Source of the DNA: Sphingomonadaceae bacterium
Lineage (GTDB): Bacteria > Pseudomonadota > Alphaproteobacteria > Sphingomonadales > Sphingomonadaceae
DNA length: 36,207 bases
Assembly (NCBI GenBank): GCA_019239915.1
Contig: JAFAZF010000073.1
Location: 1 to 36,207, forward strand
Direction of reading: 5' to 3'
Positions 11,482-29,887 of the stretch are shown in pieces. Made by a program: the position numbers and the translations under genes. The notes beneath the pieces were generated by a model. It was not told the origin of the DNA. It did not search any database and was given only the letters and a program-made list of their open reading frames with translations. How positions within the stretch are numbered: position 1 is the stretch's first letter; every line of letters starts with the position of its first letter.

Positions 11482-13089
11482 TCGAGCTTTAGCGTGGGGC
11501 TCGCTAAGGCGCTTCCAACCCATGTTGATGAGCGGCTTCGCGTTCATCTCGGAAACCGTGATCACGCGATCCTCCGGCACCGACACCGAAACGCCGTCGA
11601 GCAAGCTGACATGGCTCGTACCCTGCGGTACTTCGATGCGGACGGTCGGCTCCTCCCTTGCGCGCCGCTCGCGCTCGTCGCGCTCCTTATAATAGCGGCC
11701 GATGCTGGAGACTGATGAATTCTCCTTCATCCAGTTGATCGCGTGCGCAAATGCGTCGGCCATGTCGTCGTTGCGGCCGAGAGGAAACGCGCAGATCTCG
11801 TCCACGAATTCTTCGACGCCATCGCCGGCCTCCGGCAGCTCGATCAGCTCATCAGCCATCATGGAGGTCGCAGCGCGGAACCGAAGCTCCTTACTTTGGC
11901 GAGCCGGTGCCTCGACCAAGCGAAAGCGCTGGCCGCGCAGTTCCGTCAGCAACGCCGTGCCGAGGCCGGCGTCCTCGATGATCATGACGTCGACCTTGAA
12001 TCGACGGGCGCGCGCGAGTGCCGTTTCACGTAAACCCTTGAACTCGAGGTGCGCGCGAAACACGTCGAGCAAATAGGCGCGGTCGCCGATCCTGCCGAGG
12101 GTGACGAACGCGTGGAAGTCATTGGTCTCGTCCGGCTTCAGCGCCGTGTCGACCGCCATGATGATCTGCTCGAACGTCTCAGGCGGGGTGAGAAACCGCG
12201 GAAACCAATGGCGTTTGGCGATATTGCCTTCCGCCGGCAGCGGGTTCTGCTGGTACTGCGCCTCCCAGTCCATCGGCGCCATCTCGCGGCGGCGCTGCGC
12301 GTAGGCCTCGAGCGAATCGCGCTCGGGGTGCAGGGCCTCGCCGATGGCGCGATGATGGGTCTGCGGCCCCAGAAACGTTCGATAGTGAAAGGTCTCGTCC
12401 GTAGTCGCTATCGCGGGCAGCACGAGATGCTCCCAACCGCCCTGGCTCAGGAACAGCCCCGTCGGGTCTTCTTCATGGAGGCGCTGCTGGACGAGCAAGA
12501 TACGGCAATCGCTGATGCTGTTGGTGCGCGAGATGAGCGTGTTGCTGATCCGCGCGTTGAGCCGCTTGCGACCGGATTCGGAGGCGGCCTGATCAGGCGG
12601 GGTCAGATCGTCGAAAATCAGATAGTCGCCACCTCGACCCGTGACGGCGCCACCCGCCGACCGCGCGAGCCGCTTGCCGCCGCGCGTCGTGTCGAACGCA
12701 TCGGCGGCCGACTGGATCGGCGATATGCGCGTCTTGGTGATCGCCTTGTACGCGCGCGACTGCATGATCTCGCGCGTGCCCCGCGACAGCTCGACCGCGA
12801 GCGTCTCCTCGTAGCTGATTCCGAACACGTGGATGGTCGGATCTCGCGCCAGCAGCCAGGCAGGGTACACCTTCGAGCAGATCTCACTCTTCAGCGACCG
12901 CGGCGGCGCGTTGACGATCAAGCGCATGATAACGCCCTCCGCCAGCTGCATCAGCCGATCGCACAGCAGATCGTGATGCCAATTCCATTCGATTTTACGG
13001 CCGCTGGTTTCGCTGATGAAGCGATAGGCGAACATCCCGAGGTCGTTGAGGTAAAGGTCAGCAAGCTCCGCGACATCATTCTCCGCCAT
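11461..13089 (-). CDS. phage terminase large subunit
   Basis: This 542-residue protein has the two domains of a DNA-packaging motor. The N-terminal ATPase has a Walker A-type APPRSLKS (61-68) and a Walker B YLIFDD (156-161). The C-terminal RNase H-like nuclease has acidic residues D314, E372/D373 and D441/D442/D445. The ATG at 13089 has GAGGAG 7 nt upstream and overlaps the 3' end of the DUF5681 gene by 14 bp, indicating an operon. No portal, capsid or tail gene is present here, so packaging by this locus alone is impossible. All key motifs look intact. The tail after residue 450 is charged. Confidence 0.85.
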   Translation of the reverse strand: MAENDVAELADLYLNDLGMFAYRFISETSGRKIEWNWHHDLLCDRLMQLAEGVIMRLIVNAPPRSLKSEICSKVYPAWLLARDPTIHVFGISYEETLAVELSRGTREIMQSRAYKAITKTRISPIQSAADAFDTTRGGKRLARSAGGAVTGRGGDYLIFDDLTPPDQAASESGRKRLNARISNTLISRTNSISDCRILLVQQRLHEEDPTGLFLSQGGWEHLVLPAIATTDETFHYRTFLGPQTHHRAIGEALHPERDSLEAYAQRRREMAPMDWEAQYQQNPLPAEGNIAKRHWFPRFLTPPETFEQIIMAVDTALKPDETNDFHAFVTLGRIGDRAYLLDVFRAHLEFKGLRETALARARRFKVDVMIIEDAGLGTALLTELRGQRFRLVEAPARQSKELRFRAATSMMADELIELPEAGDGVEEFVDEICAFPLGRNDDMADAFAHAINWMKENSSVSSIGRYYKERDERERRAREEPTVRIEVPQGTSHVSLLDGVSVSVPEDRVITVSEMNAKPLINMGWKRLSEPHAKARSPRALD

Positions 13090-13564
13090 CGCTGCTCTCC
13101 TCGTTCTCCTGTCCACGTTTTGCCTCATCCGCCTCCCGCTCGGCGAGGCGCTTTCGCAACAGCTCGAGCATGGCCAGATCAGCCGGTGCGAGCGGCACAT
13201 TAGGCACTTGCGCGGCCTCCTTCGCCTCGAGGGCAAGGCCGAGCTCGATGGTTCTGATCAGCGCGGGAACATTTAGCTTCTTAAGGCCGAGCAAACTTAG
13301 CTGCTCGATGTTCGCCTCGAGCCGCGACATCGTCTTCATGCCGTCCTTGGAGGGGAATTGCATGAGCTGGAACAGCACCTTTTTTGCGAGAGTCGAGGCA
13401 TTGAGGCTGCCCTTGGGCCGCCCTTTCGGATTACCTGACTCATTATCCGCGAACGTGCCGAAATTCGTCCGGCCGTCCCCACGATCGGCACCATCTTCCG
13501 GCGAGGGGTCCTCCCCCTGCCGGCGCAGACGCGGCGGCTTCGGCTCGCGCTTCGAATTACCCAT
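13076..13564 (-). CDS. DUF5681-domain protein, possible terminase partner
   Basis: This 162-residue protein has a charged, low-complexity N-terminus. It then carries the hallmark GNPKGRPKGS (residues 44-53) of the DUF5681 family, followed by a helical region. Members are usually encoded directly upstream of a large terminase and may act as a small terminase-like DNA-recognition subunit. That role is inferred from position rather than proven. GGGAGG lies 6 nt before the ATG at 13564, which fixes the start over an upstream in-frame one. The gene overlaps the terminase gene start. Confidence 0.75.
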   Translation of the reverse strand: MGNSKREPKPPRLRRQGEDPSPEDGADRGDGRTNFGTFADNESGNPKGRPKGSLNASTLAKKVLFQLMQFPSKDGMKTMSRLEANIEQLSLLGLKKLNVPALIRTIELGLALEAKEAAQVPNVPLAPADLAMLELLRKRLAEREADEAKRGQENEESSDGGE

Positions 13565-13666
13565 GTAAACCTCCCGACCCAACGTTCGAATCATCGATCG
13601 CAGGGCAAAAATGTGCGGAGCAAGCGAAGCAGGCGGGCGTCGCGCCGGCGGCGCCCGCCCCGCCCC

Positions 13667-15040
13667 TCAGCCCTTGGCGAGCACCTCGCGCTCGATGTCG
13701 TCGAACAAGCGACCGCTCTGCTCATGGACCGCCTGGAGGCCGGTCCAGCGCTGGAGGCGACGGATGGAGGCGTCGACATAGAGCGGGTCGAGATCCATGC
13801 CATAGCCGATCCGAGCAACCTTGGCGGCGGCAATTAGCGTCGTGCCCGAGCCGAGAAACGGATCGAGCACGATCTCGCCGCGCGCGGTGCTGTCGAGAAT
13901 CGCGTCCGCGACGAGATCGATCGGCTTCGGGGTGGCGTGAATGGCGAGCGGGCTTGCCTTGCCCTCGCCATGGCTGAAGCTCAGCGCCGCCGGATATTCC
14001 CAGACATTGGTCCGGTGGCGACCGCCGGCACCGAGCATGACGTTATTGCGGCGCTTGCCGCCCGGCCTGGCGAAGATCAGCACCAGCTCGTGCGCGCTCC
14101 TGTAGAACGAGCCCATGCCGGCGCGATCCTTGACCCAGACCGCGAGGTTAATGAGCGGCCCGAAGGTCTTTTTGGCCGCGCGCTCGAGCCAGCCAAAGCC
14201 GCGCCAGTCCATGCAAATGTAGATGATCGCGCCGGGCTTGCAGGCACTGGCAATCGCGGCCGAATAGCTCTCCGCGAACGCCTCGAGCTCAGCCTTGTCC
14301 ATATCGCCCGAACCCATCACGAACTCGCGCCGGTTGCGTCGGGTGCTGGCGAACCCAGCAATCTTGCAGCCATAAGGCGGGTCGGTGAACACCGCCGACG
14401 CCGAGACGCCGGCCATTAGCCGGGCATAGGCCGAGAGATCGGTCGCGTCGCCGCAGCCGATGCGATTGTCGCCAATCTGGAAGACGTCGCCCAACTTCGC
14501 GACGGCGGGAAGGTCCTTGTCAGGCCCGCCCTCATCCTCAACCTCAACCCGATCCGGCTCGGCAAGGATGAGATCGATCTCGCTGGCATCGAGCGCCAAG
14601 CACTCGAGGTCGAAGTTCGGCATCTCCTCCTGCACCTCGAGCAGCAAGCTACGCTGCTTCGCGCGATCGACCTTACCGAGCGAGTTGATCTTGCTGAGCG
14701 CTTCGGACAGCATTCGCTCCTGGAGCGGCGTCAGGTTGGTGACGTCGATCACGGGGACGTAGGGGATTCCGACTGCCTTGGCGGCGAGCGCAATCAGCTG
14801 CCCCGAAATCACTGTACCATGTCGCCCGATCAACACCGGAAGGTGGATGTCGAGCGCCAGCAGCGTGCGCCCGGCGCGCTTCACGTCACGCGGGCTGAAA
14901 TCTCGGCAGTCGTCCGGGTGCAGCACGAGGCTCTCCGACGCGACATGGCGGATCTTGGGCGCCAGATTGTCGCCAATTGACGGCAACGGGACGACGGGGG
15001 GCGCGTCGAGCGCCGGCATATTCGAGATAGGCTTGTTCAT
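13667..15040 (-). CDS. ParB-domain DNA methyltransferase (N4/N6 type)
   Basis: This 457-residue protein fuses a ParB/sulfiredoxin-like N-terminal domain (about residues 35-165, with RHGTVISGQLIALAAKAVG) to an amino-methyltransferase. Motif IV is DPPYG at 220-224. Motif I, DPFLGSGTT at 393-401, follows it, giving the motif order of the beta class. Such proteins add methyl groups to exocyclic amino groups of DNA using S-adenosylmethionine. GGAGGA lies 7 nt before the ATG. The gene is 100 bp upstream of DUF5681 on the same strand. In phage settings these enzymes usually protect or mark phage DNA. Confidence 0.85.
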   Translation of the reverse strand: MNKPISNMPALDAPPVVPLPSIGDNLAPKIRHVASESLVLHPDDCRDFSPRDVKRAGRTLLALDIHLPVLIGRHGTVISGQLIALAAKAVGIPYVPVIDVTNLTPLQERMLSEALSKINSLGKVDRAKQRSLLLEVQEEMPNFDLECLALDASEIDLILAEPDRVEVEDEGGPDKDLPAVAKLGDVFQIGDNRIGCGDATDLSAYARLMAGVSASAVFTDPPYGCKIAGFASTRRNRREFVMGSGDMDKAELEAFAESYSAAIASACKPGAIIYICMDWRGFGWLERAAKKTFGPLINLAVWVKDRAGMGSFYRSAHELVLIFARPGGKRRNNVMLGAGGRHRTNVWEYPAALSFSHGEGKASPLAIHATPKPIDLVADAILDSTARGEIVLDPFLGSGTTLIAAAKVARIGYGMDLDPLYVDASIRRLQRWTGLQAVHEQSGRLFDDIEREVLAKG

Positions 15041-15102
15041 TGCATGTCCTCCGGTTGTGGGAGGACAGCTCATTCAACCCCGAAAATTGTGCGAGGCGAG
15101 GA

Positions 15103-16661: not shown

Positions 16662-18698
16662 CTAAGCCTGGATGAGGTGTTCAGTCTGCCGCTCTGTCCC
16701 AACGATTAATGCGTCCACCGCAACGGTCCCTTGCGCACCGAGCAGTAGCGGATTGATGTCGACCGCAGTGATCGCGCCGTCGCGAGCCAGCGCCAGCCGT
16801 TGGACCGCGAGAAGGATGTCGATCAGCTCTCTCCAACTGGATGAAAGGCGCCAGCGCGGGCCGCGCACGATGCGCCCCAGCGTACTGAGCGCAAGCTTGC
16901 GCTCAATCTCAGCTGAGCTCGCCGGGATTGACCATATCGCGTAATCGTCGATCGTCTCGGCATGGACGCCACCGAGGCCTGCGATTAGCAGCGGTCCGAC
17001 ATCAGGCGATACCGTCACGCCAACGATCGCCTCAAGTTCGCCCCGCAGCATCGGTTGGACCAATGCCCGTCCGTCGACCGCGGCGCAGGCGGTGCGCACG
17101 GCGTCCGCATCACCGAGGTTCAGATGGACGAGGCCGGCATCTGACTTGTGCGCGACCCCTTCGACCACGCCTTTGACGACGACCGGATAGCCGATCTCGT
17201 TCGCCGCCTTCACCGCCGCGTCGGCATTATCGCAGACCACGGCCGTCACGACCGGCACGCCGAACCGTGCGAGCAGGGCCAGACTCTCCGCTTCGCCGAG
17301 CGGTCCCGGCTTTAGAGAACCGAGCGTCGCCTCAACTTCATCCGCCACGCTGCCTGACGGCGAGAGAAACGCCACGACCGCCTCCAGGCAGCAGTCGGTC
17401 TCGGCGAAACACATCAGGCCTTCCGCTTCGAACGCGGCGCGCCCGGCCTTGTCGAGGCCCGCCGGCGCCAGGATCAGATGCGGCTTGCCGCTCGCGCGCT
17501 GCGCGGCGCCATAGGCCTTTGCCAACTCCCCGCGCGATACCGGCGCCAGCGTCGGAAGGAAGCCAACGACAATGCCGACGCTTGGATCGGCGGCAACCGC
17601 ATGGGCGATCTCGCCGATCGCCACAAAGCTCCCGAACACGCCGACGTCGATCGGGTTGACGGCACGCGAGAAGCGCGTGTGGCGATCAAGCACCGCCTGT
17701 GTCTCGGACGTGAAGTCCGCCATCACGATGCCGCGTGCCGCGGCGAGATCGGCCATCAGCGCGCCGCCGGCGCCGGATGTCGACAGGACCGCCGCACCGC
17801 CCGCTCCACGCCCGTGGCGCGAGACGAGCGCCGCGCTCGCGATCAGCCCTTCGACCGTGCTCGCCAGTGGAATTCCGCAGGCCTCCAGCAGCGCCCGATA
17901 TGCGCGGCCGCCACTGGTCATGCGGCTCGAATGCGCAATCGCCGCCGCCTCGCCGCGCTCCGACAAGCCGACCTTGAGCGCCACGATCGACTTTCCCGCA
18001 GCGTCGGCCGCACGCGCCAGCCGACGCAGCCGGCGTCCGTCGGCGATACCGTCGAGCACAAGCGCGATCACCTGCGTCGCCTCGTCAGCGATGCAATGTT
18101 CGAGGTAGTCGAGCACGTCGAGGTCGGCCTCGTTGCCCGCCGACACGAACAGCGACAGCCCGGCGCCGAAGTCCATCAGGCGCCGCGCGAACACATCGAA
18201 CAGCGCGCCGCTGTGCGAGAGGATCGCGACATCGCCCGGCGTGATCGGGAGCGCATGGCCGACGTTGAAGCCCACCGACACTGGCAGCCGCGCGTTGTAG
18301 ATGCCGTTGCAGTTGGGGCCGACGATGCGCGTCCCGTACGCCCGCCCGATCGCGGCAATCTCAGCCTGCCGAGCGGCGCCCGCCTCGCCGCTCTCGGCAT
18401 AGCCCGCCGAGCCGACGATCACCGCACCCATGCCCGCCGCCGCGCAGGCACGCACCGCATCGGGCGCTGCCTCAGCCGGCACCGCGAGGAAGGCGAGATC
18501 GATGCCGGACGGCAGTTCGTCGATCCGCGCGGCGCAATGCACGCCTTCGATCGGCGCGCCGCGCGTTACTGCGAAGATGTCGCCCTCGAAACCGCTCGCG
18601 CGAAGGTTGGCGAGCACCATCCCGCCGATCCGCGACGGGTCGGCCGACGCGCCGATCACCGCGACGCTGCGCGGCCGGAACAACCTGTCCAACACCAT
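16662..18698 (-). CDS. acyl-CoA synthetase, NDP-forming (acetate-CoA ligase family)
   Basis: This 678-residue fused enzyme forms an acyl-CoA from a carboxylic acid, CoA and ATP through a phosphohistidine intermediate, or runs in reverse. The order is a CoA-binding Rossmann domain (SVAVIGAS at 11-18), two ligase domains including GPNCNG (128-133) and AHSSRM, whose H256 sits where the phosphorylated His lies in archaeal acetyl-CoA synthetases. A C-terminal ATP-grasp domain contains VAHKSDAG. The ATG at 18698 starts 2 bp after the stop of the enoyl-CoA hydratase gene. The acid substrate is unknown. Confidence 0.85.
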   Translation of the reverse strand: MVLDRLFRPRSVAVIGASADPSRIGGMVLANLRASGFEGDIFAVTRGAPIEGVHCAARIDELPSGIDLAFLAVPAEAAPDAVRACAAAGMGAVIVGSAGYAESGEAGAARQAEIAAIGRAYGTRIVGPNCNGIYNARLPVSVGFNVGHALPITPGDVAILSHSGALFDVFARRLMDFGAGLSLFVSAGNEADLDVLDYLEHCIADEATQVIALVLDGIADGRRLRRLARAADAAGKSIVALKVGLSERGEAAAIAHSSRMTSGGRAYRALLEACGIPLASTVEGLIASAALVSRHGRGAGGAAVLSTSGAGGALMADLAAARGIVMADFTSETQAVLDRHTRFSRAVNPIDVGVFGSFVAIGEIAHAVAADPSVGIVVGFLPTLAPVSRGELAKAYGAAQRASGKPHLILAPAGLDKAGRAAFEAEGLMCFAETDCCLEAVVAFLSPSGSVADEVEATLGSLKPGPLGEAESLALLARFGVPVVTAVVCDNADAAVKAANEIGYPVVVKGVVEGVAHKSDAGLVHLNLGDADAVRTACAAVDGRALVQPMLRGELEAIVGVTVSPDVGPLLIAGLGGVHAETIDDYAIWSIPASSAEIERKLALSTLGRIVRGPRWRLSSSWRELIDILLAVQRLALARDGAITAVDINPLLLGAQGTVAVDALIVGTERQTEHLIQA

Positions 18699-18700
18699 CG

Positions 18701-19489
18701 TCACCGCCCTTTCCACTCGGGCTTGCGCTTCTCGACGAAGGCGCGGAAGCCTTCGACCCGATCCTCGCTGGTGTAGGGGCTCACGCCTTCGTTGAGCCGA
18801 AGCCCGGCCGCGATCGGCAAGCCCCACGCCTTGTACGCGGTCTCCTTCATGCGCCGCAGCGTGATCGGCGCGTTCGCGGCGATGCCCCGGGCAAGCTCCA
18901 TCGCCTCGGCGACGACGGAGCCCGGCGCGCTGATCGCGCTCACCAGGCGGATGCGCAGCGCCTCGTCGGCATCGATCGGTTCGCCAGTGAACATCATCCG
19001 CAACGCGTCTGAGCGCGCGATGAGCCGCGGCAGGACGACGCTGGCGAAATGCGCACCCATGCCCCGCTTCGCCTCAGGAAGCGCGAAGCGCGCCGCCGGA
19101 TCGCAGAGGCGGATGTCGCAAGCCAACGCCAGCTCCATGCCACCGCCGTAGGCCGCGCCGTTGACCGCCGCGATGGTCGGCTTCCAGGTCTCGAGCAGCA
19201 TCTCGTGCAGCGCCCGGCCAGTGCCCATCATCGGCCCGCGCATCGGCGGCGCGCCGGGCGCCTGATAATCCTTGATATCCGCGCCCGCGCAAAATGCCTC
19301 AGCACCCGCTCCGGTGACGACCAGCGCACCGACATCGGGATCGAACAGCGCATCGTCGAGCGTGCGCAATAGAGCTTCGTGCAGTGCGGGACTGATAGCG
19401 TTGCGGCGTGCCGGCCGGTTGATGGTGAGGAGGCGCACGCCATCGCGCGTCTCGATCAGCAGGTCGTCAGGCACCGGGGCGTCGGTCAT
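18701..19489 (-). CDS. enoyl-CoA hydratase/isomerase family protein
   Basis: This 262-residue crotonase-fold protein has an oxyanion-hole region AFCAGADIKDY (65-75) and GGGMELALACD (115-125). E119 and E139 (in LPEAKRG) are 20 residues apart, which matches the catalytic Glu pair of true enoyl-CoA hydratases. Hydration of a 2-enoyl-CoA in a beta-oxidation-like sequence is therefore likely. It sits between the MFS permease, whose stop overlaps its ATG (ATGA), and the acyl-CoA ligase. The three form one tight leftward operon. Confidence 0.85.
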   Translation of the reverse strand: MTDAPVPDDLLIETRDGVRLLTINRPARRNAISPALHEALLRTLDDALFDPDVGALVVTGAGAEAFCAGADIKDYQAPGAPPMRGPMMGTGRALHEMLLETWKPTIAAVNGAAYGGGMELALACDIRLCDPAARFALPEAKRGMGAHFASVVLPRLIARSDALRMMFTGEPIDADEALRIRLVSAISAPGSVVAEAMELARGIAANAPITLRRMKETAYKAWGLPIAAGLRLNEGVSPYTSEDRVEGFRAFVEKRKPEWKGR

Positions 19490-20775
19490 TCGACGGGATC
19501 CTCAGGAATGGCGAAAGGGACGAAGCTGGGATAGCGCCCGAGCGTCGCCAGCAGCGCGATCGCCACGAGCAGCGCACCGGCGAACGCCAGCCATGCGACA
19601 CGGTACGAGCCGGTCGCATCGAACACCACGCCCGCCAGAAACGGCCCGGCGCCATAGCCCAGGCCGTAAAGGCCCAGCAGCATGCCATAGATCTTGCCGT
19701 AGTGGCGAAGCCCGAAATAACGGCTGGCCAGGAACGCGAGCGTGTCGCCCTCAGTGCCGAGCGCGAAACCGACGAACAGCGCAACGGTGACACCGAACGC
19801 CATCGAATGGCCGGGCAGCAGCATCAGGACGCAGGCAAAGAACGGCAGCACCAGTGTCGCCGCAGCGACGAAGGGCGCGAACAGCAGATCGAGCAGCGAT
19901 CCGCCGATGATCCGACCGGCGACCGTGCCCGGTCCCATTGCGCCAAGCACGATCGCGGCATCACGCGGGCTCATGCCGCGATCGGTCAGCATCGCTACGA
20001 AATGGACGCTGAACATGCCGCACACGCCGGCGGCGATGATCAGGCTGATCGTCAGCCGCCAGAAGCGCGACCCGCGCAGCGCCTCGCCGAAGCCGATGCC
20101 CGCTTCCTCGGCGGCCGCGGCCGAGACCGTCTCGGCACGCCGCTCGCCCGCAGCCGCGGCGCGCGCACGCAAATCCCTGGCGTCGTAGAAGAACAGCCAC
20201 GCAAGCGGAAACGCGATGAGAAACGCGTAGGCGCCGAGCCCCGCCCACAGCAATCTCAGTCCCAGCCGTTCGAACGCGATCGTCACGATCAACGGCGTCG
20301 CGGTGCCGACCGCAGAGATGCCAGCCATGGCGACACCCAGCGCGAGGCCGCGCTGCCTGTAGAAGCGACTCGCGACGCCGAGGCTCCAGGTCATCGGTCC
20401 CACCGCCGGACCGATCATCGCGGTGATCGCGAACAGGGAATAGAAGAGTGAGAGGTTGCCGCCGGCAATCCCGAGCGATGCCAGCGCGAGCGAAAAGATC
20501 GGAACACCGACAAGGACGATCCGGCGCGCCCCCCACTGATCGACCGCCGACCCCAGCAGCGGTGCCATGATCAGCGTGCCGAAGCTGAGCAGCAGCGACG
20601 TTCCGGATATCTGGGTGCGGGTCCAGCCATAGGCGGCGGTCAGCGGCTTCATCAGCACGCCGATCGCGCCCAACTCGAGCGCCGCTATGCCGACGCCGAG
20701 GAACGCTGCGGCCACAAGGCCTGCACCCTCCCGCCATTCGCTGCGCCCCGCATCGCCGGGAGTCTCCGGTCGCAC
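19486..20775 (-). CDS. MFS transporter of the catabolic operon
   Basis: This 429-residue protein has about 12 hydrophobic segments. It begins with a short polar N-terminus and an Ala-rich first helix, and a charged loop at about residues 202-225 separates the two halves. The pattern resembles the monocarboxylate/oxalate-type branch of the major facilitator superfamily, which would suit import of an organic acid. The start is a GTG at 20775-20773 with GGGAGG about 10 nt upstream. It is the first gene of an operon with an enoyl-CoA hydratase and an acyl-CoA ligase, so import followed by CoA activation is the natural inference. Confidence 0.8.
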   Translation of the reverse strand: MRPETPGDAGRSEWREGAGLVAAAFLGVGIAALELGAIGVLMKPLTAAYGWTRTQISGTSLLLSFGTLIMAPLLGSAVDQWGARRIVLVGVPIFSLALASLGIAGGNLSLFYSLFAITAMIGPAVGPMTWSLGVASRFYRQRGLALGVAMAGISAVGTATPLIVTIAFERLGLRLLWAGLGAYAFLIAFPLAWLFFYDARDLRARAAAAGERRAETVSAAAAEEAGIGFGEALRGSRFWRLTISLIIAAGVCGMFSVHFVAMLTDRGMSPRDAAIVLGAMGPGTVAGRIIGGSLLDLLFAPFVAAATLVLPFFACVLMLLPGHSMAFGVTVALFVGFALGTEGDTLAFLASRYFGLRHYGKIYGMLLGLYGLGYGAGPFLAGVVFDATGSYRVAWLAFAGALLVAIALLATLGRYPSFVPFAIPEDPVE

Positions 20776-20847
20776 CGCCAGCCAGCCTCCCGCACGCGAG
20801 GCTCATCCCCGTCGTCAGAGCGGCTATTTATATTCCTGGGAAAATAG

Positions 20848-20859
20848 TTCAAGCTTGAA
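20848..20859. promoter_or_regulatory. 12-bp palindrome before the MFS operon
   Basis: TTCAAGCTTGAA is a perfect palindrome, 5 bp past the MarR stop codon and about 70 bp before the MFS start on the same strand. On the leftward strand, TTGAAC and a TATAAA-like element lie just beyond it. It is a plausible operator, perhaps for the adjacent MarR protein. Confidence 0.45.
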
Positions 20860-20863
20860 GCGA

Positions 20864-21385
20864 TCAGCTGTTCGCGTCACGCTCGCTCTGTTTGCCGATC
20901 CGGCTGAGCATGCGATCGAGGCGCTCCCATTCGCCCGGCGACAGCGCGCCGAGCACTACCGATCGGCTCAGCGTGCGCGCGCGGCGCGCGCGATCCAACC
21001 CCTGCTCGGTCGGCGCGATGCGGCACGCCCGCCGGTCATCCTGCGACCACAGACGCTCGATCAGACCGCCCGACTCGAGCCGATCGACGCGCTTCGAGAT
21101 GCCGCCCGGTGTCACCGCCAGGATCGCAGCGAGATCAGTGATGCGCGGCCTGTTTTCCGCAGTGCTGCGCTGGAGCAGATAGAGAATGTCGAGATCGCCG
21201 ACCTGCAGTCCGACCCGTTCGGAGACTTCGACCTGATGACGCCGCATCCGGCTGACCAAGCGGACCATCCGACTGAGCGCCACGATCGCGGGCGCCTCGT
21301 CGGGGCCGACGATGTCCTTCGAATCCCCGATAAACCGCCGCAGGCCCGCCAGTTCATCGCGCCCGTCATCGTCCTCACCGCTCAC
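20864..21385 (-). CDS. MarR-family transcriptional regulator
   Basis: This 173-residue protein carries a winged helix at about residues 70-130 (ITDLAAILAVTPGGISKRVD and RLESGGLIERL). The wing contains SQDDRRACR. MarR proteins usually repress catabolic or efflux genes and release DNA on binding an aromatic or acyl ligand. It starts with a GTG that overlaps the stop of the thioesterase gene (GTGA), so they share a transcript. Only 88 bp separates its stop codon from the start of the MFS operon, making that operon a likely target. Confidence 0.85.
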   Translation of the reverse strand: MSGEDDDGRDELAGLRRFIGDSKDIVGPDEAPAIVALSRMVRLVSRMRRHQVEVSERVGLQVGDLDILYLLQRSTAENRPRITDLAAILAVTPGGISKRVDRLESGGLIERLWSQDDRRACRIAPTEQGLDRARRARTLSRSVVLGALSPGEWERLDRMLSRIGKQSERDANS

Positions 21386-21873
21386 GCCGACGCCCGCTCT
21401 CGCGCGAGACCGATCCGACGGCCGACCGTATCCGGCTGCGGCAGCGCGCCGTGCGCCGCTGCGATGTCCTGCAGCCGTTCAACCCATTGTGCCGGCATCG
21501 GCGCGGACCGGCGCGTCGAGCGATCGACGTGGATGGTCATCAACTCGACTGTCGCGGCCCGCACGCCCGTCGCCTCGTTCACGATCTCGTGAAGATGGTG
21601 GATGCGCTTGCCGTCGGCGCCGATTAGCCAGCTCCGCACGATCACCGGGTCGCCGAGCCGCAGTTCGCGCGCGTAGACAATATGCATCTCGAGCTGGAAC
21701 AGCGTGCTGCCGGCGGCTTCGAGTGTTTCGCGCGTGATCCCGGCGTGGGCGAGGAGTGCCTGCGTCCCGCCATCGGCAGCACGCTTATATTCGATCGAGT
21801 CCATATGTTCGTTCTCATCGACCCAATCCGATGGAACGCTAAATCGGTAACCACAGAAGGGTGCGTCTTGCAT
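21382..21873 (-). CDS. thioesterase-like hot-dog fold protein
   Basis: This 163-residue protein fits the 4HBT hot-dog fold family. The N-terminal DWVDENEHMDSIEYKR (from residue 17) holds a D/E-x-N-x-H-M pattern close to that in 4-hydroxybenzoyl-CoA thioesterases. The central strand YARELRLGDPVIVRSWLIG is typical. It probably hydrolyses an acyl-CoA or releases a dead-end CoA ester in the pathway. GAGG lies 7 nt before the ATG. Co-transcription with the MarR regulator is expected from the 4-bp overlap. Confidence 0.75.
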   Translation of the reverse strand: MQDAPFCGYRFSVPSDWVDENEHMDSIEYKRAADGGTQALLAHAGITRETLEAAGSTLFQLEMHIVYARELRLGDPVIVRSWLIGADGKRIHHLHEIVNEATGVRAATVELMTIHVDRSTRRSAPMPAQWVERLQDIAAAHGALPQPDTVGRRIGLARERASA

Positions 21874-22853: not shown

Positions 22854-22927
22854 GCTCTCCACCTTTCATGTTCCGCCCCGCTGACCGTTTGCCGGGGATT
22901 GCACGGCCGTCCCGAACCATTGTATTA

Positions 22928-22941
22928 ACTTCCATGGAAGT
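22928..22941. promoter_or_regulatory. 14-bp perfect palindrome in a divergent promoter region
   Basis: ACTTCCATGGAAGT reads identically on both strands. It lies between the lipocalin-like gene (leftward) and the amidohydrolase remnant (rightward), about 25 bp before the latter's ATG. This is a typical operator position for a dimeric regulator such as one of the MarR or FadR proteins in the window. Confidence 0.5.
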
Positions 22942-22964
22942 CAAATTGAGATCGAGAGGTTGCC

Positions 22965-23454
22965 ATGGACGCCCAATATGATCTGGTCATCCGCAACGGC
23001 TCGATCCTGGATGGATCAGGCAAAGACGCTTTTATGGGCGGCGTCGCCATTGCCGAGGGGCGGATCGTCGCGGTTGGCGTGGTCGAAGGGCGCGGGCGCG
23101 CGGAAATCGATGCCGCCGGGCTGACCGTCACGCCGGGCTTCATCGACATCCACACCCATTATGACGGCCATGTCACTTGGGAGGAGCGTTCCGTGCCCTC
23201 CGGCGAGCATGGCGTCACCACCGTCGTCACCGGCAATTGCGGCGTCGGCTTCGCGCCGGTGCGCGCGCCCGACCGGGAGCGACTGGTCTCGCTGATGGCC
23301 GGCGTCGAGGACATCCCGGAGGTCGCGGACGGCGCTTCATGTGGAAGCGCAGCCGCGTTTCGGCGACCTGCTGAGCGCGCGCGAATGGTCGCAGCTCAAT
23401 CAGCTGCGCGATCGGCTGGTCGACTATGCGGTAGCGGTGGACGCGCAGGTATAA
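22965..23454 (+). pseudogene. amidohydrolase (D-aminoacylase type) N-terminus joined to a foreign 3' end
   Basis: The protein starts [20 protein letters not shown] and carries the metal-binding [14 protein letters not shown], as in N-acyl-D-amino-acid deacylase-type amidohydrolases. It stays in register to GVEDIPEV near residue 119, codons before the rest of the 500-residue enzyme should follow. From about 23,330 the sequence reads, in another frame, [20 protein letters not shown] then [18 protein letters not shown] and a stop at 23452-23454, apparently the C-terminus of an unrelated protein. More than two thirds of the enzyme is gone. GAGAGG precedes the ATG, so the fragment may still be translated. 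Confidence 0.65.
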
Positions 23455-23581
23455 GCAGCGATCAAGCGCACTCCATTTCGGCCGGAGCGGGAACCAACAT
23501 GATGCACGCGCCCGCCCCCACCCAAATTGTCCGCCGCTTGGTCGCCGCGATGGCGCACGCCGGGCCAGTCTGACGGGGCGC

Positions 23582-24349
23582 TCAGCTGTCGTAGCCGGGT
23601 AGCTGACGATCGAGGCGGCGCAGCATGGCTGGCCAGAGATACTTCGCGGCGTAATCCGGCGAGGAGACCTCCATGAACGTGTTCGCCTTGGCGATCGCAG
23701 CAGGAGGCGCCGGATGCAGCGGCAGGTTCATCCCGCAAGTCCGCACCTGCACGGAGCAGGAACGCTCGAAGAAATACATCTTGTTGAAGCAGTCCGCGAT
23801 GTCCCGCCCGACGGCGAGGGTGCCGTGGTTGCGCAACAGCATGAGATCCTTGGTTCCGAGATCGCGCGCGAGCCGCTGCCGCTCGTCCGTGTCGACGGCG
23901 ACGCCCTCGAACTCGTGGAAGGCGACTTGCGCGTTGATGAGCATGGCCGTCTGGTTGAGCGGCAGCAGACCGCCCTCGACGCCCGATACCGCGACACCAT
24001 CGAGCGTATGAAGATGCATCACGCATCCGGCATCCGCGCGTGCCATATGCACGGCGCTGTGGATGACGAAGCCGGCGCGGTTCACCTTGTGAACCGAATC
24101 TCCGACGATCTCGCCGGCGGCGTCGATCTTCACGAGGCTCGAGGCGGTGATCTCCTCGAACAGCCAACCATAGGGATTGAGCAGGAACAGCTCGCGGCCA
24201 TCCTCGTCCGGCAGTCGTGCCGATATATGCGTGGCGAGCAGATCGTCCCACCCCATCATCGCCACGAGGCGATAGCAGGCGGCAAGATCGCAGCGCGTCT
24301 GCCATTCGGCGTCGCTCATCGCATAGGGCGCGGAACGGACTGCCTTCAT
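23582..24349 (-). CDS. class II aldolase/adducin family protein
   Basis: This 255-residue protein keeps the metal-binding histidines of the family: H112 and H114 in MHLHT and H175 in RNHGTLAVG. NPYGWLFEEITASSLVKID (59-77) is the substrate-loop region. Family members do retro-aldol cleavage or decarboxylation, and many catabolic-cluster members act on non-sugar substrates. GGGAGA lies about 7 nt before the ATG at 24349, so longer open frames upstream are not used. In this setting it might cleave a hydroxylated intermediate, but the substrate is unknown. Confidence 0.8.
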   Translation of the reverse strand: MKAVRSAPYAMSDAEWQTRCDLAACYRLVAMMGWDDLLATHISARLPDEDGRELFLLNPYGWLFEEITASSLVKIDAAGEIVGDSVHKVNRAGFVIHSAVHMARADAGCVMHLHTLDGVAVSGVEGGLLPLNQTAMLINAQVAFHEFEGVAVDTDERQRLARDLGTKDLMLLRNHGTLAVGRDIADCFNKMYFFERSCSVQVRTCGMNLPLHPAPPAAIAKANTFMEVSSPDYAAKYLWPAMLRRLDRQLPGYDS

Positions 24350-24652: not shown

Positions 24653-25138
24653 ATGTCCGGAACAGCGATCAACGGCATCCACCATGTCGGCATGTCCGTG
24701 CCCAGCCTCGAGCGCGCCCGCGCCTTCTACGTCGATCTGCTCGGCATGACCGAGCTCGGCGCCCACGGCGGCTGGAGGGACTCGGCGCAAATGGATCGAC
24801 TCACGCGCCTGCAAGGGACGGCTGCGCGGATGATGTTCCTCGCTGCAGGCAATCTCTTTCTCGAGATGTTCGAATATAGCGCGCCTCCCCCTCCGCCGAT
24901 CATTCACGAGCGCGGGGTTCACGAATATGGCTTCACGCACCTGTGCATCGACGTGAATGACACCGATGCGATCCACGCGCGGCTCACTGCGGCAGGCATG
25001 GATTTCCATTGCGATCCGATCTCCGCCTCGGGCGTGCGGACAGTCTATGGCCGCGATCCGTTCGGCAACGTGATCGAGTTGCAGCAGATCGTCACCGAGG
25101 ACGTGGTGAAGCGGGTGCCGGCCCTCGCAGGCCGCTAG
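24653..25138 (+). CDS. VOC-family (glyoxalase/extradiol dioxygenase-like) protein
   Basis: This 161-residue single-unit VOC protein has metal-ligand candidates H11 (INGIHHVGMSV), E71 or E74 (FLEMFEYS), H96 (YGFTHLCIDVND) and E142 (GNVIELQQ). That is the His/Glu/His/Glu pattern of the fold. The DPFGNVIEL motif is a family hallmark. Such proteins act as isomerases, epimerases, lyases or dioxygenases, and the sequence does not decide which. GAGAGG lies 6 nt before the ATG. It is followed by a MarR regulator on the same strand. Confidence 0.8.
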   Translation: MSGTAINGIHHVGMSVPSLERARAFYVDLLGMTELGAHGGWRDSAQMDRLTRLQGTAARMMFLAAGNLFLEMFEYSAPPPPPIIHERGVHEYGFTHLCIDVNDTDAIHARLTAAGMDFHCDPISASGVRTVYGRDPFGNVIELQQIVTEDVVKRVPALAGR

Positions 25139-25236: not shown

Positions 25237-25848
25237 ATGGCGTCGTCGATCGGAGGATCGAGCGCCGAGCAGGTGATTTCGGGAGCGATCGAGCATGCCG
25301 CCATGGTAGGTCCACGCATCGAAGAAGCGGACCTGGACGCCAGCGATCCCGATTATCCGACATCGCTGCCTGCGCGTTTCTATGCCGCGATCCGCGGCCT
25401 CGACGATCACTCCGGCGAACAACGCCTCCGGCGGCAGGCGATGGGTCTGCTGCAGGACATCTCCACGAGGCTGCAGCAGATTGCCGCGGACACCGCCGCC
25501 ACTGCCGAGATCCATCGCAGCGATCTGCTCGTGCTCGCCCTGCTCTACCGGGCGAACACCGCGCGGACCGTCAAGGCGTCGGCGATCCAGCGCGGCCTAG
25601 GTTTCACCGCAGGCGGCGTGACGCGGCGGCTCGATGCAATGGAGGCAAAACAGCTGATCGAGCGCGTGCGTGACCCTGCCGACGGACGGGCGTGGCTCGT
25701 TCGCCTCACGGCGAAGGGCGCCGAGTTGGCGGCGCGGATCCTCGAACGAAGCGATGCGCGCAACCGCCGGTTGCTCGAGGAATTCTCCGACGCGGAATGG
25801 GCGACGATGATCGCGCTCCTGCGCCGCGTGAACGGCGCGCTGCTCTGA
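25237..25848 (+). CDS. MarR-family transcriptional regulator
   Basis: This protein has about 203 residues from the ATG at 25237. Starts at 25207 and 25303 are also possible, and none has a good ribosome-binding site. A G8 run and GGAGG at 25178-25187 precede an in-frame ATT at 25195, so a rare ATT start cannot be excluded. The winged helix covers about residues 100-160 (KASAIQRGLGFTAGGVTRRL then DAMEAKQLIERVRD), with a DGRAW wing. The N-terminal extension of about 60 residues is longer than usual. It probably controls the neighbouring VOC or crotonase genes. Confidence 0.75.
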   Translation: MASSIGGSSAEQVISGAIEHAAMVGPRIEEADLDASDPDYPTSLPARFYAAIRGLDDHSGEQRLRRQAMGLLQDISTRLQQIAADTAATAEIHRSDLLVLALLYRANTARTVKASAIQRGLGFTAGGVTRRLDAMEAKQLIERVRDPADGRAWLVRLTAKGAELAARILERSDARNRRLLEEFSDAEWATMIALLRRVNGALL

Positions 25849-25863
25849 TCGACGATAGGTGTC

Positions 25864-26616
25864 TCAACCGACCTGGCATAGCGCTTCGACCGCGAGCCCG
25901 AGCTCGAGTTCGTCGCGCATTCGGTGCCGCAGCGATCGTATGAGCACGCGTCGGGTGTGGCGCAGCATCTCGCTGCTGTTCTTGGCGAGACCGTGCGCGA
26001 GCTCGCGCGCGCGCCGCAGCACGTCGGCTGCCGGCAGCACTTCGCCGACGATGCCAAGCTGCTTCGCCTCTATCGCGGAGATCCGCTCGCCGGTGAGCAG
26101 AAAATAGCGGCCGCGGTTGGGGCCGAGCAGTGCAAGCCAGACCGCCTGCACGCCGTCGCCCGGCACCACGCCGCCGGGGACATGCGCGACGTCCGCGAAT
26201 TCGGCATGATCGGCGGCGATCACGATATCGCTCAGCACCGCGAGCTCCGCGTGGATCAGCGCGGGACCGTTCACCGCCGCGATCACCGGCACCGGGATGG
26301 CGAGCAGGTTCTCTAGCAATGCGACGCCCTCACGAAAGATGCGTCGCCAGATCGCCGGAGCATCCGTCTCGGGCGGGCGCGTCTCCGCATCCATCGCCGC
26401 GATGAAATTGGCGCCCGTGCCGGTCAACAGCACGACCTTGTTGTCGATGTCGCGCGCGATATCGGCGAATGCGAAACCGAGTTCGGCGTGCAGGCTCTGC
26501 TCCGTTATGCCCCACACGGCTTCGCCGCCGCGCGTGTGCATGGTGACCTCGAGCACGCCGCCCTCGCGCGAGAAACGCAGGCTCTCGTAGCGACCGGCAT
26601 AGTCGGACAACTGCAT
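25864..26616 (-). CDS. 6-oxocamphor hydrolase-like crotonase (retro-Claisen C-C hydrolase)
   Basis: This 250-residue crotonase-fold protein lacks the Glu pair of enoyl-CoA hydratases. It carries H43, H122 (ALIHAELAV), H145 and D154 (AHVPGGVVPGD) and E244. These match the active-site residues I recall for 6-oxocamphor hydrolase (His45, His122, His145, Asp154, Glu244), with the last four at the same numbers. Stretches such as DNKVVLLTGTG and GRYFLLTGE also resemble that enzyme. The family hydrolyses a C-C bond of non-CoA cyclic beta-diketones. GAGGAG lies 8 nt before the ATG. It converges with the MarR gene 16 bp away. Confidence 0.75.
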   Translation of the reverse strand: MQLSDYAGRYESLRFSREGGVLEVTMHTRGGEAVWGITEQSLHAELGFAFADIARDIDNKVVLLTGTGANFIAAMDAETRPPETDAPAIWRRIFREGVALLENLLAIPVPVIAAVNGPALIHAELAVLSDIVIAADHAEFADVAHVPGGVVPGDGVQAVWLALLGPNRGRYFLLTGERISAIEAKQLGIVGEVLPAADVLRRARELAHGLAKNSSEMLRHTRRVLIRSLRHRMRDELELGLAVEALCQVG

Positions 26617-26799
26617 TCCGCGATCTCCTCATCCGTGCGCTTGTGGCGCCATGTACCGGCGGCGCTTGATATCCGCTGCCTATTCGGGAGGGATATATGG
26701 ACAGTGCCGAGAGCCTTCCTCTAGGGGGCGGACAAGCGGATTACCACCGATCGCGACGAACTCCGCGCCGCTCCCCTCGTTCACCCCATGGAGGCCGAC

Positions 26800-27624
26800 A
26801 TGACCGACGAAGCTCAAGGACACGACTATTCAAACTACACGTCGCTGAAGCTGTCGCTCGCCAACGGGATCATGACCGTGATGCTGTCTAACCCCGGCCG
26901 TCGCAACGCAATGACGCCTGGCATGAGCAACGAACTGACCACGATCTGGGACGACCTGTTGATCGATCCGGAGGTGAAGGTGATCATCCTCACCGGCGAA
27001 GGAAACGATTTCAGTTCCGGCGCTGATCTCTCGGCAATGTCGAAGAGCCAGCAGCTCGCGCCGGTCAGCCGACCGGTCAACACCGTTTCCCGCGCGGCGC
27101 GGCGCCACATCCTCTCGCTGCTCGATTGCGAGAAGCCGATCATCGCGAAGGTGCGTGGCGTCGCCTATGGGCTCGGCGTCAGCCTCGCGCTGGGTTCGGA
27201 CATGGTGTTCGCGGCCGAAGGCGCACGCTTCTGCGACTCACATGTGAAGGCGGGGATGGTCGCGGGTGACGGCGGCGTGCTCATCTGGCCGCTGCTCGTC
27301 GGCATGAATCGCGCCAAGGAGTATCTGATGACGGGTGAGCCGGTGTATGCGGACGTCGCCGAGCGCATCGGCCTGATCAACCGCTGCCTGCCCGACGACC
27401 AGCTCGACGCGCACGTGCAGATGATGGCGGAGAAGCTGCGCGATCTGCCGCCGCACGCGGTGAATTACACCAAGGCGTCGCTCAACCAGGCCTTGCGCAA
27501 CATGACCGGCGCGGCGTTCGAAACCTCGCTCGCCTACGAAATCTATTCGATGGGCATGGACGACTGCAAGGAAGCGACCCGCGCCTTTGTCGAGAAGCGC
27601 AAGGGCAACTTCAAGGGCATCTAG
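26800..27624 (+). CDS. crotonase-fold protein with a His/Asp active site
   Basis: This 274-residue protein has the oxyanion-hole region FSSGADLSAM (71-80) and the usual C-terminal RAFVEKRKGNFKGI. At the first catalytic Glu position it has GLGVSLALGSD, with Ser or Val instead of Glu, and at the second it has SHVKAG. H148 and D157 (SHVKAGMVAGD) have the same 9-residue spacing as the His-Asp pair of the crotonase at 25,864. It is unlikely to be an ordinary hydratase. GGAGG precedes the ATG at 26800 by 5 nt, so the ATG 12 bp upstream is not preferred. It is convergent with the CoA transferase gene. Confidence 0.75.
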   Translation: MTDEAQGHDYSNYTSLKLSLANGIMTVMLSNPGRRNAMTPGMSNELTTIWDDLLIDPEVKVIILTGEGNDFSSGADLSAMSKSQQLAPVSRPVNTVSRAARRHILSLLDCEKPIIAKVRGVAYGLGVSLALGSDMVFAAEGARFCDSHVKAGMVAGDGGVLIWPLLVGMNRAKEYLMTGEPVYADVAERIGLINRCLPDDQLDAHVQMMAEKLRDLPPHAVNYTKASLNQALRNMTGAAFETSLAYEIYSMGMDDCKEATRAFVEKRKGNFKGI

Positions 27625-27667: not shown

Positions 27668-28843
27668 TCAGGCGGGTAAGGTGCCGTTCGCGCGCATCCG
27701 TTCGATCTCTTCCGCGTGGAATCCGAGTTCGGCCAGGATCGGCTCGGCATGCTCGTTGAGCCGCGGCGGCGAGTCATAGTGGTGGGGTACGGGGAGGCCG
27801 TCGCGCATCTCGATGCAGGGCGATGCGACCTGCCGGAACGGGGCGCCCTCTCGCTTCGCCTCGACGATGCGATGCGTCGCCGCCACCTGCGGATCAGCGA
27901 CGACGTCCGCGAGCGCCTGCACCGGTTCGAACTTCACCCCACCCGCGTTCAGCCGGCCGGCGAGATCGGCATAGTCGAGAGCGCCGATCGCCTGATCGAT
28001 GGCATCGACCAGTGCGGCGCGCACCTCGCGCGGCAGGCGCGGCTCGGCAAAGCGCGGATCGGCAGCGATGTCGCGCCGGTCGATCGCCGCGGCCACTTCG
28101 GGCAGTTCGGCCTGCAGCTGAACCCAGCGGCCGTCCCGCGTGCGGAAATAGTTGGCGAGCGGCATCACGGCATTGTGCCGATCTCGGCTGGGAACCGCGC
28201 GGCCGAGGTTGAGCAGGTTCGAGAAGTCGGTGGCGAACGCCCACATGCCCGCGCCCATCAGCGCAGTGTCGATCCAGCGGCCGACGCCGGTCTGCCGCGC
28301 GTCCAGCAGCGCCGCCAGCATGCCGATGCACGCGCACATGCCGGTCACGCGATCGCCCACCGCCTGGCGAATCGGAAGCGGATCGCTGCCCTCGACCGTG
28401 AGCAAGCCGGTGCCGCCGCCCCGTGCCCAAAAACCGAGATTGTCGCTGGCGCCGCGATCGGCATCGGGGCCCGCGCGCCCGAAGCTCGACACCGAGCCAT
28501 AGACCATGCGCGGATTGATCGCATGCAGGCTGTCATAGTCGAGCGCCAGCTTCTTGAGCCTTTCGGGCAGCACGTTGGTGATGAAGATGTCGGCATCGCG
28601 CACCAGCCGCAGGATGATCTCGCGCGTGTCCGGCGCGGAGGTATCGAGCGCGATCGAGCGCTTGCCGCGGTTGTGCAGATCATAGTTGGCGCTGCCGAGC
28701 GGGCTGCCTGGCCGCGCGCGCATGCGATCGCCCTCATGAGGTTCGATCTTGATCACGTCGGCGCCCCAATCGGCCATCATGCCCGCCGCGGCCGGTGCCG
28801 CGACCATGGAAGCGAACTCGACCACTCGCAGACCGTGCAGCAT
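27668..28843 (-). CDS. CaiB/BaiF-type (family III) CoA transferase
   Basis: This 391-residue protein begins MLHGLRVVEFASMVAAPAAA and continues with WGADVIKIEPHEGDRMR, the standard start of family III CoA transferases. GDRVTGM near residue 160 contains the Asp that forms the acyl-anhydride intermediate in formyl-CoA transferase. The enzyme moves CoA from an acyl-CoA to a free acid without ATP. An in-frame ATG at 28855 also exists, but GGGAGG lies 4 nt before the chosen start. It is divergent from the second VOC gene at 28994, with 150 bp between them. Confidence 0.8.
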   Translation of the reverse strand: MLHGLRVVEFASMVAAPAAAGMMADWGADVIKIEPHEGDRMRARPGSPLGSANYDLHNRGKRSIALDTSAPDTREIILRLVRDADIFITNVLPERLKKLALDYDSLHAINPRMVYGSVSSFGRAGPDADRGASDNLGFWARGGGTGLLTVEGSDPLPIRQAVGDRVTGMCACIGMLAALLDARQTGVGRWIDTALMGAGMWAFATDFSNLLNLGRAVPSRDRHNAVMPLANYFRTRDGRWVQLQAELPEVAAAIDRRDIAADPRFAEPRLPREVRAALVDAIDQAIGALDYADLAGRLNAGGVKFEPVQALADVVADPQVAATHRIVEAKREGAPFRQVASPCIEMRDGLPVPHHYDSPPRLNEHAEPILAELGFHAEEIERMRANGTLPA

Positions 28844-28993: not shown

Positions 28994-29887
28994 ATGACCA
29001 CGCCGAACGTCCGCTGGACTTTTCATGGCACCGTATTGGTGCACGACTATGATGCCGCGCTCGCCTGGCTGAACCGGATGACCGGGTGCACCGCGCTCGA
29101 ATTCAGCGACGCGGGGCCGCCCGTCTCGCGCCGCGGCGGCTGTTGCTCGCTTGGCGACAATCTCCTCGAATTGATGGAGCCGAACGATCCGGCAAGCCCG
29201 GGCGGCCGCTATCTCGAGCGGTTCGGGCCCGGGCTGTTCAACATCGCGCTGCAGGTCGACGACATCCAGGCGATGAGCGACCATCTCGGCGCGCACGGCG
29301 CGCCCGTCGCGTTTCCGCCCGAGCAAGGCTTCACCTTCACGCGCCCGCGCGACACCTGCGGCATCCAGTTCGAGTGGGCCGATATCCAGGGCGAATGGGA
29401 CCCGCGCTTCGGCGGCGCATGGCCCTCCGCCCGCGGTTTGATCGAGACGCCGCGGATCGCGTGGTGGGGGGCGCTGGTGAGCGACCCGGGTGAGGCCGTT
29501 CGCAGGCTGAACGCGCTATGGCCGGCGCCGGTTCTTCACCTCGATCCTTCCGCGCCGCCTGACCGCATCGCAGCAGCGCTGTCGCTCGGCGACGGCGTGC
29601 TGGCACTCTACCGGCTCCCGGAGACGCTCGAGGAGGAGCGTGCGCTGTGGGGCGTGGCCACCGGGAAGGCGCGTACACACCTGATCGCGCTGCGCGTCAC
29701 TTCGCTCGCTGATGCCTGCGTGACATTAACCGCCGAAGGCGTCCGCTTGCTGCGCGAGAGTGCGGACGAGATCGTCACGCGACCCGAGGATTGCCACGGG
29801 CTCGTAATCTCCTGGACCGAGCGCGACCTGTCCGGCGATCCCCGTGGCCCGCTTCGGCCGATCGGCGCGACGACCGGATCAAGGTAG
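28994..29887 (+). CDS. VOC-superfamily protein, two-module
   Basis: This 297-residue protein has two VOC-like halves. The first (residues 5-130) starts VRWTFHGTVLVHDYDAALAW and ends TCGIQFEWADI. The second half is degenerate, from about residue 150 (WWGALVSDPGEAVRRLNALW) to 280. The last metal-ligand Glu is present in the first half (FEWAD), but the others are hard to place. Two-module VOC proteins include extradiol dioxygenases and methylmalonyl-CoA epimerase-like forms. No strong ribosome-binding site is seen. It may act on an intermediate of the same pathway as its neighbours. Confidence 0.65.
   Translation: MTTPNVRWTFHGTVLVHDYDAALAWLNRMTGCTALEFSDAGPPVSRRGGCCSLGDNLLELMEPNDPASPGGRYLERFGPGLFNIALQVDDIQAMSDHLGAHGAPVAFPPEQGFTFTRPRDTCGIQFEWADIQGEWDPRFGGAWPSARGLIETPRIAWWGALVSDPGEAVRRLNALWPAPVLHLDPSAPPDRIAAALSLGDGVLALYRLPETLEEERALWGVATGKARTHLIALRVTSLADACVTLTAEGVRLLRESADEIVTRPEDCHGLVISWTERDLSGDPRGPLRPIGATTGSR

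Follow-up and report, generated by a model that had tools for sequence, protein, structure and literature searches.

To our knowledge, characterised retro-Claisen C–C hydrolases with a crotonase fold are very few. The nearest to the gene described here are 6-oxocamphor hydrolase (OCH; PDB 1o8u and 1szo), whose functional residues we take to be His45, His122, His145, Asp154, and Glu244, and ABDH of Anabaena (Alr4455; PDB 2j5g and 2j5s). The 1szo structure is that of the His122Ala mutant of OCH, and position 122 is therefore alanine in that entry. ABDH is CoA-independent according to the title of its paper, which is a reference in PMC3584854, and the portion of PMC3584854 that deals with the enzyme gives its catalytic set as D153, H144, E243, and H43, a set without an equivalent of His122. 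In the same portion, His44, His146, Asp155, and Glu244 of the EchA15-type protein 3q1t are matched to His43, His144, Asp153, and Glu243 of ABDH by local-site comparison, and 3q1t is proposed from this residue match to be a beta-diketone hydrolase.

The stretch of DNA analysed (the window) is 36,207 nucleotides long and is a whole contig of a Sphingomonadaceae genome. The target gene is an ORF of 250 codons (250 amino acids) on the minus strand that starts with ATG; it is a real gene with a good ribosome-binding site. The gene and the codons discussed below, which were read directly and placed by alignment, are as follows.

25864..26616, minus strand: target gene, putative OCH/ABDH-type beta-diketone hydrolase (ORF, phmmer, and tree)
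26625..26630, minus strand: ribosome-binding site GAGGAG, 8 nt upstream of the target ATG (sequence read)
26512..26514, minus strand: codon of Trp35, in the column of OCH Trp40
26488..26514, minus strand: segment from Trp35 to His43, candidate substrate-specificity loop (alignment)
26488..26490, minus strand: codon of His43, equivalent to OCH His45
26251..26253, minus strand: codon of His122, the diagnostic residue
26245..26247, minus strand: codon of Glu124, in the first hydratase glutamate column
26182..26184, minus strand: codon of His145, in the second hydratase glutamate column
26155..26157, minus strand: codon of Asp154, dyad partner of His145
25885..25887, minus strand: codon of Glu244

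In a phmmer search of all PDB chains, the product of this gene matched OCH (1o8u, E = 3.2e-66; 1szo, E = 7.9e-65) and ABDH (2j5g, E = 2.6e-56) best, and the next match was the EchA15 structure 3qk8 (E = 6.7e-23). BLAST identities to OCH, ABDH, and 3qk8 are 50% (122/243), 43% (105/243), and 33% (72/218), respectively. The only Pfam model above its cut-off is ECH_1 (E = 2.7e-29) and none of the best 25 of 66 NCBIfam models reached its cut-off, so that the protein would receive the default label of enoyl-CoA hydratase. The label 'enoyl-CoA hydratase/isomerase family protein' is also carried by 17 of the 20 plasmid homologues listed (20 of 43 matched). This annotation would make the protein a normal enoyl-CoA hydratase or isomerase, which is nevertheless most improbable: it shares with these enzymes the fold, the ECH_1 match, and one glutamate column (Glu124), but the second glutamate column is occupied by His145, the CoA motif is lost, and diketone hydrolases lead all other solved relatives by >100 bits. 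The original prediction had regarded the hydratase glutamate pair as absent; the pair is indeed broken by His145, but its first column is kept as Glu124.

The relationship to the two described enzymes was examined using an IQ-TREE phylogeny of 59 rows, comprising 45 OCH-like proteins and 14 other crotonases, in which the branch separating the two sets has a support of 100/100. OCH and a Rhodococcus plasmid protein (65% identity) are sister rows (100/98) within a six-row clade (99/97), whereas the sister row of the target is L004 (99/96), within five-row (99/90) and seven-row (100/99) clades, the latter consisting of the target, four Sphingomonadaceae metagenome-assembled genomes (MAGs), and two more genomes of the same family. 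Judging by the make-up of this clade, the host would be a sphingomonad. ABDH belongs to a third, separate subclade (97/98) that also holds relatives from two other genomes of the host's own genus (40–41% identity), with ABDH itself joining at 94/66. By its position in the tree, the target thus appears as an added member of the known OCH/ABDH hydrolases with a subclade of its own. We know of no characterised member or activity in this subclade. Because OCH and the target sit in separate subclades, the target is a paralogous relative and not an orthologue of OCH, and the substrate of OCH should not be transferred to it. A true 6-oxocamphor hydrolase in a camphor-degrading host might be suggested by the 50% identity over 243 residues, the crotonase fold family, the five shared residues, and the alignment of Trp35 with OCH Trp40. 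However, in addition to lying outside the OCH clade, the target is longer than OCH by three residues in the stretch from Trp35 to His43 and by two at residues 81–82, and no P450 gene was found within 5 kb of it, which together make this reading very unlikely.

The original prediction listed H43, H122, H145, D154, and E244 in the protein and equated the last four with OCH residues of the same numbers. All five are present, and the phmmer alignment with OCH places them at His45, His122, His145, Asp154, and Glu244, with the last four indeed bearing the same numbers; the same five are shared by ABDH, in which Phe replaces the Trp of the target and OCH. The conservation of these positions was assessed in an alignment of the 45 OCH-like proteins (the target, OCH, ABDH, and 42 homologues) and the 14 other crotonases, 10 of which come from the target's own genome; both numbers are those remaining after removal of identical or contained fragments and of frames with a stop. 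His122 is found in 44 of the 45 OCH-like proteins (Leu in L075) and in none of the 14 others, all of which have Gly. In contrast, His145 (44/45, with Trp in L032) and Asp154 (45/45) each occur in 7 of the 14 other crotonases as well, with Glu at column 145 in 5 of them. His43 is present in 41 OCH-like proteins, the exceptions being Gln in L041 and L042, Gly in L035, and L068_2043, which does not extend to this column, versus 5 of the 14 others (four gaps). Glu244 is likewise present in 41 (Gln in L004, which is the sister row of the target, and in L056 and L036; L028 does not extend to the column), versus 3 of 14 (eight gaps). Glu124 is Glu in 44/45 and 6/14, respectively, and the Trp35 column of the OCH-like proteins contains 28 Trp, 8 Phe, 7 Tyr, 1 Asn, and 1 gap. 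Since His145, Asp154, and His43 occur also in other crotonases, only His122 is diagnostic of the OCH-like group in this alignment. The His145/Asp154 pair does not mark the family, as each residue is found in half of the other crotonases (7/14), including the neighbouring gene product at 26788–27624. A chance match of the five residues is contradicted by the 50% identity to OCH over 243 residues together with the distribution of His122 (44/45 versus 0/14).

The L075 gene (9001–9723 on plasmid pLA3 of Novosphingobium pentaromativorans US6-1), in which Leu replaces the near-invariant His122, lies directly after a gene for a molybdopterin-dependent oxidoreductase.

The EchA15-type proteins (3q1t, 3qk8, and 7m3w) are look-alikes at the level of single residues, in which the His/Asp pair occurs as well, but 3qk8, the one compared here (33% identity), has Gly in the His122 column and lies outside the OCH/ABDH clade. 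We know of no assay of an EchA15-type protein. The combination of His122, located in a loop that is one residue shorter, with His145/Asp154 separates the OCH-like group from these proteins and serves as a simple marker. Genes of retro-Claisen crotonases lie hidden under the 'enoyl-CoA hydratase' label, and with this marker such members could be given a new annotation and examined for ring-opening catalysis. A second variable feature is the spacing between the Trp35 and His43 columns: seven residues in 13 of the 45 OCH-like proteins (the target and 12 other rows), four in 28 (OCH, ABDH, and 26 other rows), and six in 3, with one fragment not covering the segment.

The correspondence between target and OCH residues rests on the sequences, i.e. 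on 50% identity with short indels. An AlphaFold2 model computed from five sequences (the target and L001–L004) was a weak one from a shallow alignment (mean pLDDT 59.4), with pLDDT <50 at residues 30–44, 67–83, 119–123, 143–176, and 242–250, which include active-site residues. In a Foldseek search of the PDB with this weak model, the first 12 matches were all OCH or ABDH chains, followed by PaaG with an E-value weaker by some four orders of magnitude; this ranking agrees with the sequence result.

The target lacks the usual crotonase motif AG(A/G)D(I/L)K. All 14 other crotonases have Gly at column 74, where the target has Ala (Glu, Ala, Asp, Arg, or Ser in 35 of the 45 OCH-like proteins and Gly in one), and column 78 is Lys in 11 of the 14 and Glu in the target. 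This loss of a CoA-binding motif would fit CoA independence, and it bears on a further reading, in which the protein depends on CoA. It would then be a hydrolase of the ring-opening or beta-ketoacyl-CoA type, comparable to BadI or EchA20/ScdY, with a cyclic diketone or ketone bearing a CoA thioester as its substrate. According to PMC6678751, EchA20 is a crotonase whose substrate is a CoA-linked steroid residue, of which it opens ring D. The same window contains genes for a CaiB/BaiF CoA-transferase, an EchA15-like crotonase, and an ADP-forming acyl-CoA synthetase, as such an enzyme might have around it. Nevertheless, the OCH/ABDH clade includes the target at 100/100 (in a tree built without EchA20 or BadI sequences), the CoA motif is lost, and the neighbourhoods of OCH-like genes are poor in beta-oxidation genes (see below); we therefore regard a CoA-dependent hydrolase as unlikely, though less so than a hydratase or a true OCH.

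Several points count against reading the target as a C–C hydrolase of the OCH/ABDH kind: Glu124 is kept, most of the residue set is also found in EchA15-type proteins, the structure model is poor at active-site residues, and the surroundings of the target within 5 kb contain CoA-type genes and none of the oxidising enzymes sought. CoA-transferase and Rieske genes, both of which the window has, are no commoner near OCH-like genes than near control crotonases (see below). The best explanation, in which we place considerable confidence on sequence grounds, is still that the target encodes a CoA-independent retro-Claisen C–C hydrolase of the OCH/ABDH kind. The proposal that such an enzyme had defaulted to an enoyl-CoA hydratase label has good support from the sequence matches, the clade, and the conserved residues. 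From the family, an alicyclic 1,3-diketone is a likely substrate, although the locus does not prove it.

By analogy with OCH and ABDH, we infer that Asp154 and His145 would activate a water molecule, which would attack one carbonyl of a probably cyclic beta-diketone, and that the bond between the attacked carbonyl and the middle carbon would then break (retro-Claisen cleavage). His122, together with Trp35, would hold the diketone or the product, Glu244 would support His43, and the enol or enolate would be protonated so that a keto acid leaves. This acid could pass to the CoA-transferase encoded at 27668–28843 and to the hydratases encoded in the window.

The genes surrounding the target are the following.

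23582..24349, minus strand: class II aldolase (match to NF005451/PRK07044, above cut-off), neighbour only
24653..25138, plus strand: VOC/glyoxalase-fold protein, neighbour only
25237..25848, plus strand: MarR-type regulator, convergent with the target gene
26788..27624, plus strand: EchA15-like crotonase, divergent neighbour, with the His/Asp pair and the Glu244 equivalent and without His43 or His122 (alignment)
27668..28843, minus strand: family III CoA-transferase (CaiB/BaiF; Pfam CoA_transf_3, E = 1.8e-85)

The CoA-transferase could activate the ring-opened acid, and the EchA15-like crotonase may act in the same pathway as the target. Further genes in the window encode a second VOC protein and a TonB receptor, followed by an FMN/NMO-type protein, a GntR regulator, and a Rieske oxygenase, the last of which is cut by the contig end (36207). 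CoA-type genes are present near the target, and a search for genes of oxidising enzymes, including P450, found none within 5 kb of it. The genes flanking the target alternate in strand. Among the 11 intergenic regions compared (55 pairs), no shared operator-like word was found, and the matches were at the level of letter-shuffled sequences: the best pair (15/18 letters), from two regions neither of which adjoins the target, was equalled by 2 of 50 shuffles, which is unremarkable given 55 pairs. For the 17 other window proteins tested, which are encoded from position 16662 onwards, no separate match was found near the four closest homologues, L001–L004 (59–69% identity); the crotonase hits at those loci are the homologues themselves. 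Because of the alternating strands and the lack of a shared operator and of synteny, we do not claim that the target and its neighbours form one pathway. The argument that a position in the middle of a CoA-linked cluster implies an alicyclic substrate does not follow; it fails on these same three grounds and on the description of ABDH as CoA-independent.

Several other features of the window were observed. The region 16662–21873 contains genes for an acyl-CoA synthetase, a hydratase, an MFS protein, a MarR regulator, and a thioesterase. We take this block to resemble the sphingomonad ferulate genes FerA/FerB/FerC. The segment 16688–21837 is duplicated at 1437–6588 of L126, on another contig of the same genome (G000:C32), with 79% DNA identity, and the TonB receptor encoded on C32 is 58% identical to that in the window. 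The VOC protein gene at 28994–29887 (297 aa) also has a second copy (75% identity), at 2259–3122 of L129 (G000:C41), and in a sample of 397 genomes of the family matches at E = 1e-30 were found in its own genome only, so that the gene set of the window was not traced to other genomes. The amidohydrolase gene at 22965–23573 (plus strand) encodes only an N-terminal part (Amidohydro_3 on residues 47–119), ends just short of the convergent aldolase gene, and looks like a remnant. Between this gene and a divergent lipocalin-like gene lies a near-palindrome, TTAACTTCCATGGAAGTCAA (22925–22944), which is perhaps a MarR-type operator. Phage terminase and DNA methylase genes at 11461–15073 likely represent a prophage remnant, which is adjoined by a possible restriction endonuclease gene (10504–11481; Mrr_cat just below cut-off).

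The neighbourhoods of OCH-like genes were compared by counting gene families within 5 kb of 21 OCH-like loci, each from a different genome, and of 41 control crotonases from the same genomes, the controls being the two best listed matches per genome to the window gene 18701–19489 (one for G262). Five of the 21 OCH-like loci come from one genus, some loci of both sets are cut by contig ends, and 18 further OCH-like loci (on plasmids, in MAGs, from another class search, or second copies) stand outside the count. A gene for a P450 or for a GMC, short-chain, KstD-like, or zinc alcohol dehydrogenase is present at 18/21 OCH-like and 15/41 control loci (p = 3.5e-4), whereas a gene for an acyl-CoA dehydrogenase, thiolase, or aldehyde dehydrogenase is present at 5/21 and 30/41, respectively (p = 3.4e-4), where the p values are from Fisher tests uncorrected for 22 comparisons and both enzyme classes were formed after the loci had been seen. 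When OCH-like loci and controls were counted by genus, the oxidising class was found in 12/15 versus 9/15 and the beta-oxidation class in 5/15 versus 15/15, and the shortage of beta-oxidation genes is therefore firmer than the excess of oxidising enzymes. P450 genes alone were found at 6/21 versus 0/41 loci and old yellow enzyme genes at 8/21 versus 1/41. There was no difference within 5 kb for CoA-transferases (4/21 versus 9/41), Rieske genes (3/21 versus 5/41), or AMP-binding ligases (6/21 versus 11/41); the amidohydrolase, DUF2889, and SnoaL families were also counted, and no result from them is used. The target locus shows neither family pattern within 5 kb.

Individual loci illustrate these arrangements. 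An OCH-like gene on a plasmid of Paraburkholderia sprentiae comes after genes for a P450 and a GMC oxidoreductase. The OCH-like gene of Rhodococcus sp. 008 is followed immediately by one for an AMP-binding ligase, with a set of P450, ferredoxin, and short-chain dehydrogenase genes located ∼4–7 kb upstream. In Pseudonocardia sp. EC080619-01 (L071, 8162–9750), a gene for a 'cyclase family protein' directly precedes the OCH-like gene; this family is stated in the pertinent part of PMC10470551 to include a retro-Claisen hydrolase of dihydrophloroglucinol.

Matches to the target at E = 1e-40 or better were found in 23 genomes of a family sample of 397 (its own genome included) and in 5 of 385 genomes of the class sample; in the genus sample, 3 of 10 genomes contain a match at E = 1e-35. 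The nearest relatives (59–69% identity) are in Novosphingobium and Sphingomonadaceae MAGs. Such a patchy distribution of the subclade suggests horizontal spread. Among the papers listed in our search of the open literature, we found no report of a diketone hydrolase of the OCH or crotonase type from a sphingomonad. We tentatively suggest, as a possibility on which we would not yet rely, that the target subclade is a distinct, horizontally scattered group of CoA-independent ring-opening hydrolases with an enlarged Trp–His43 loop, that this group has adapted to alicyclic diketones of greater bulk (terpenoid- or steroid-like) supplied by P450s or by GMC-type or short-chain dehydrogenases, and that it has been joined at the present locus to a CoA-transferase route.

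OCH-like genes occur more than once in some genomes: two are adjacent in G422 (L081/L068), and G017 (L056) has several copies (three matches). The OCH-like product of L062 (8450–9358, in G055) has an apparent N-terminal signal peptide, judged by eye and with the start taken from the gene caller, which, if true, would place an OCH-like member outside the cytoplasm.
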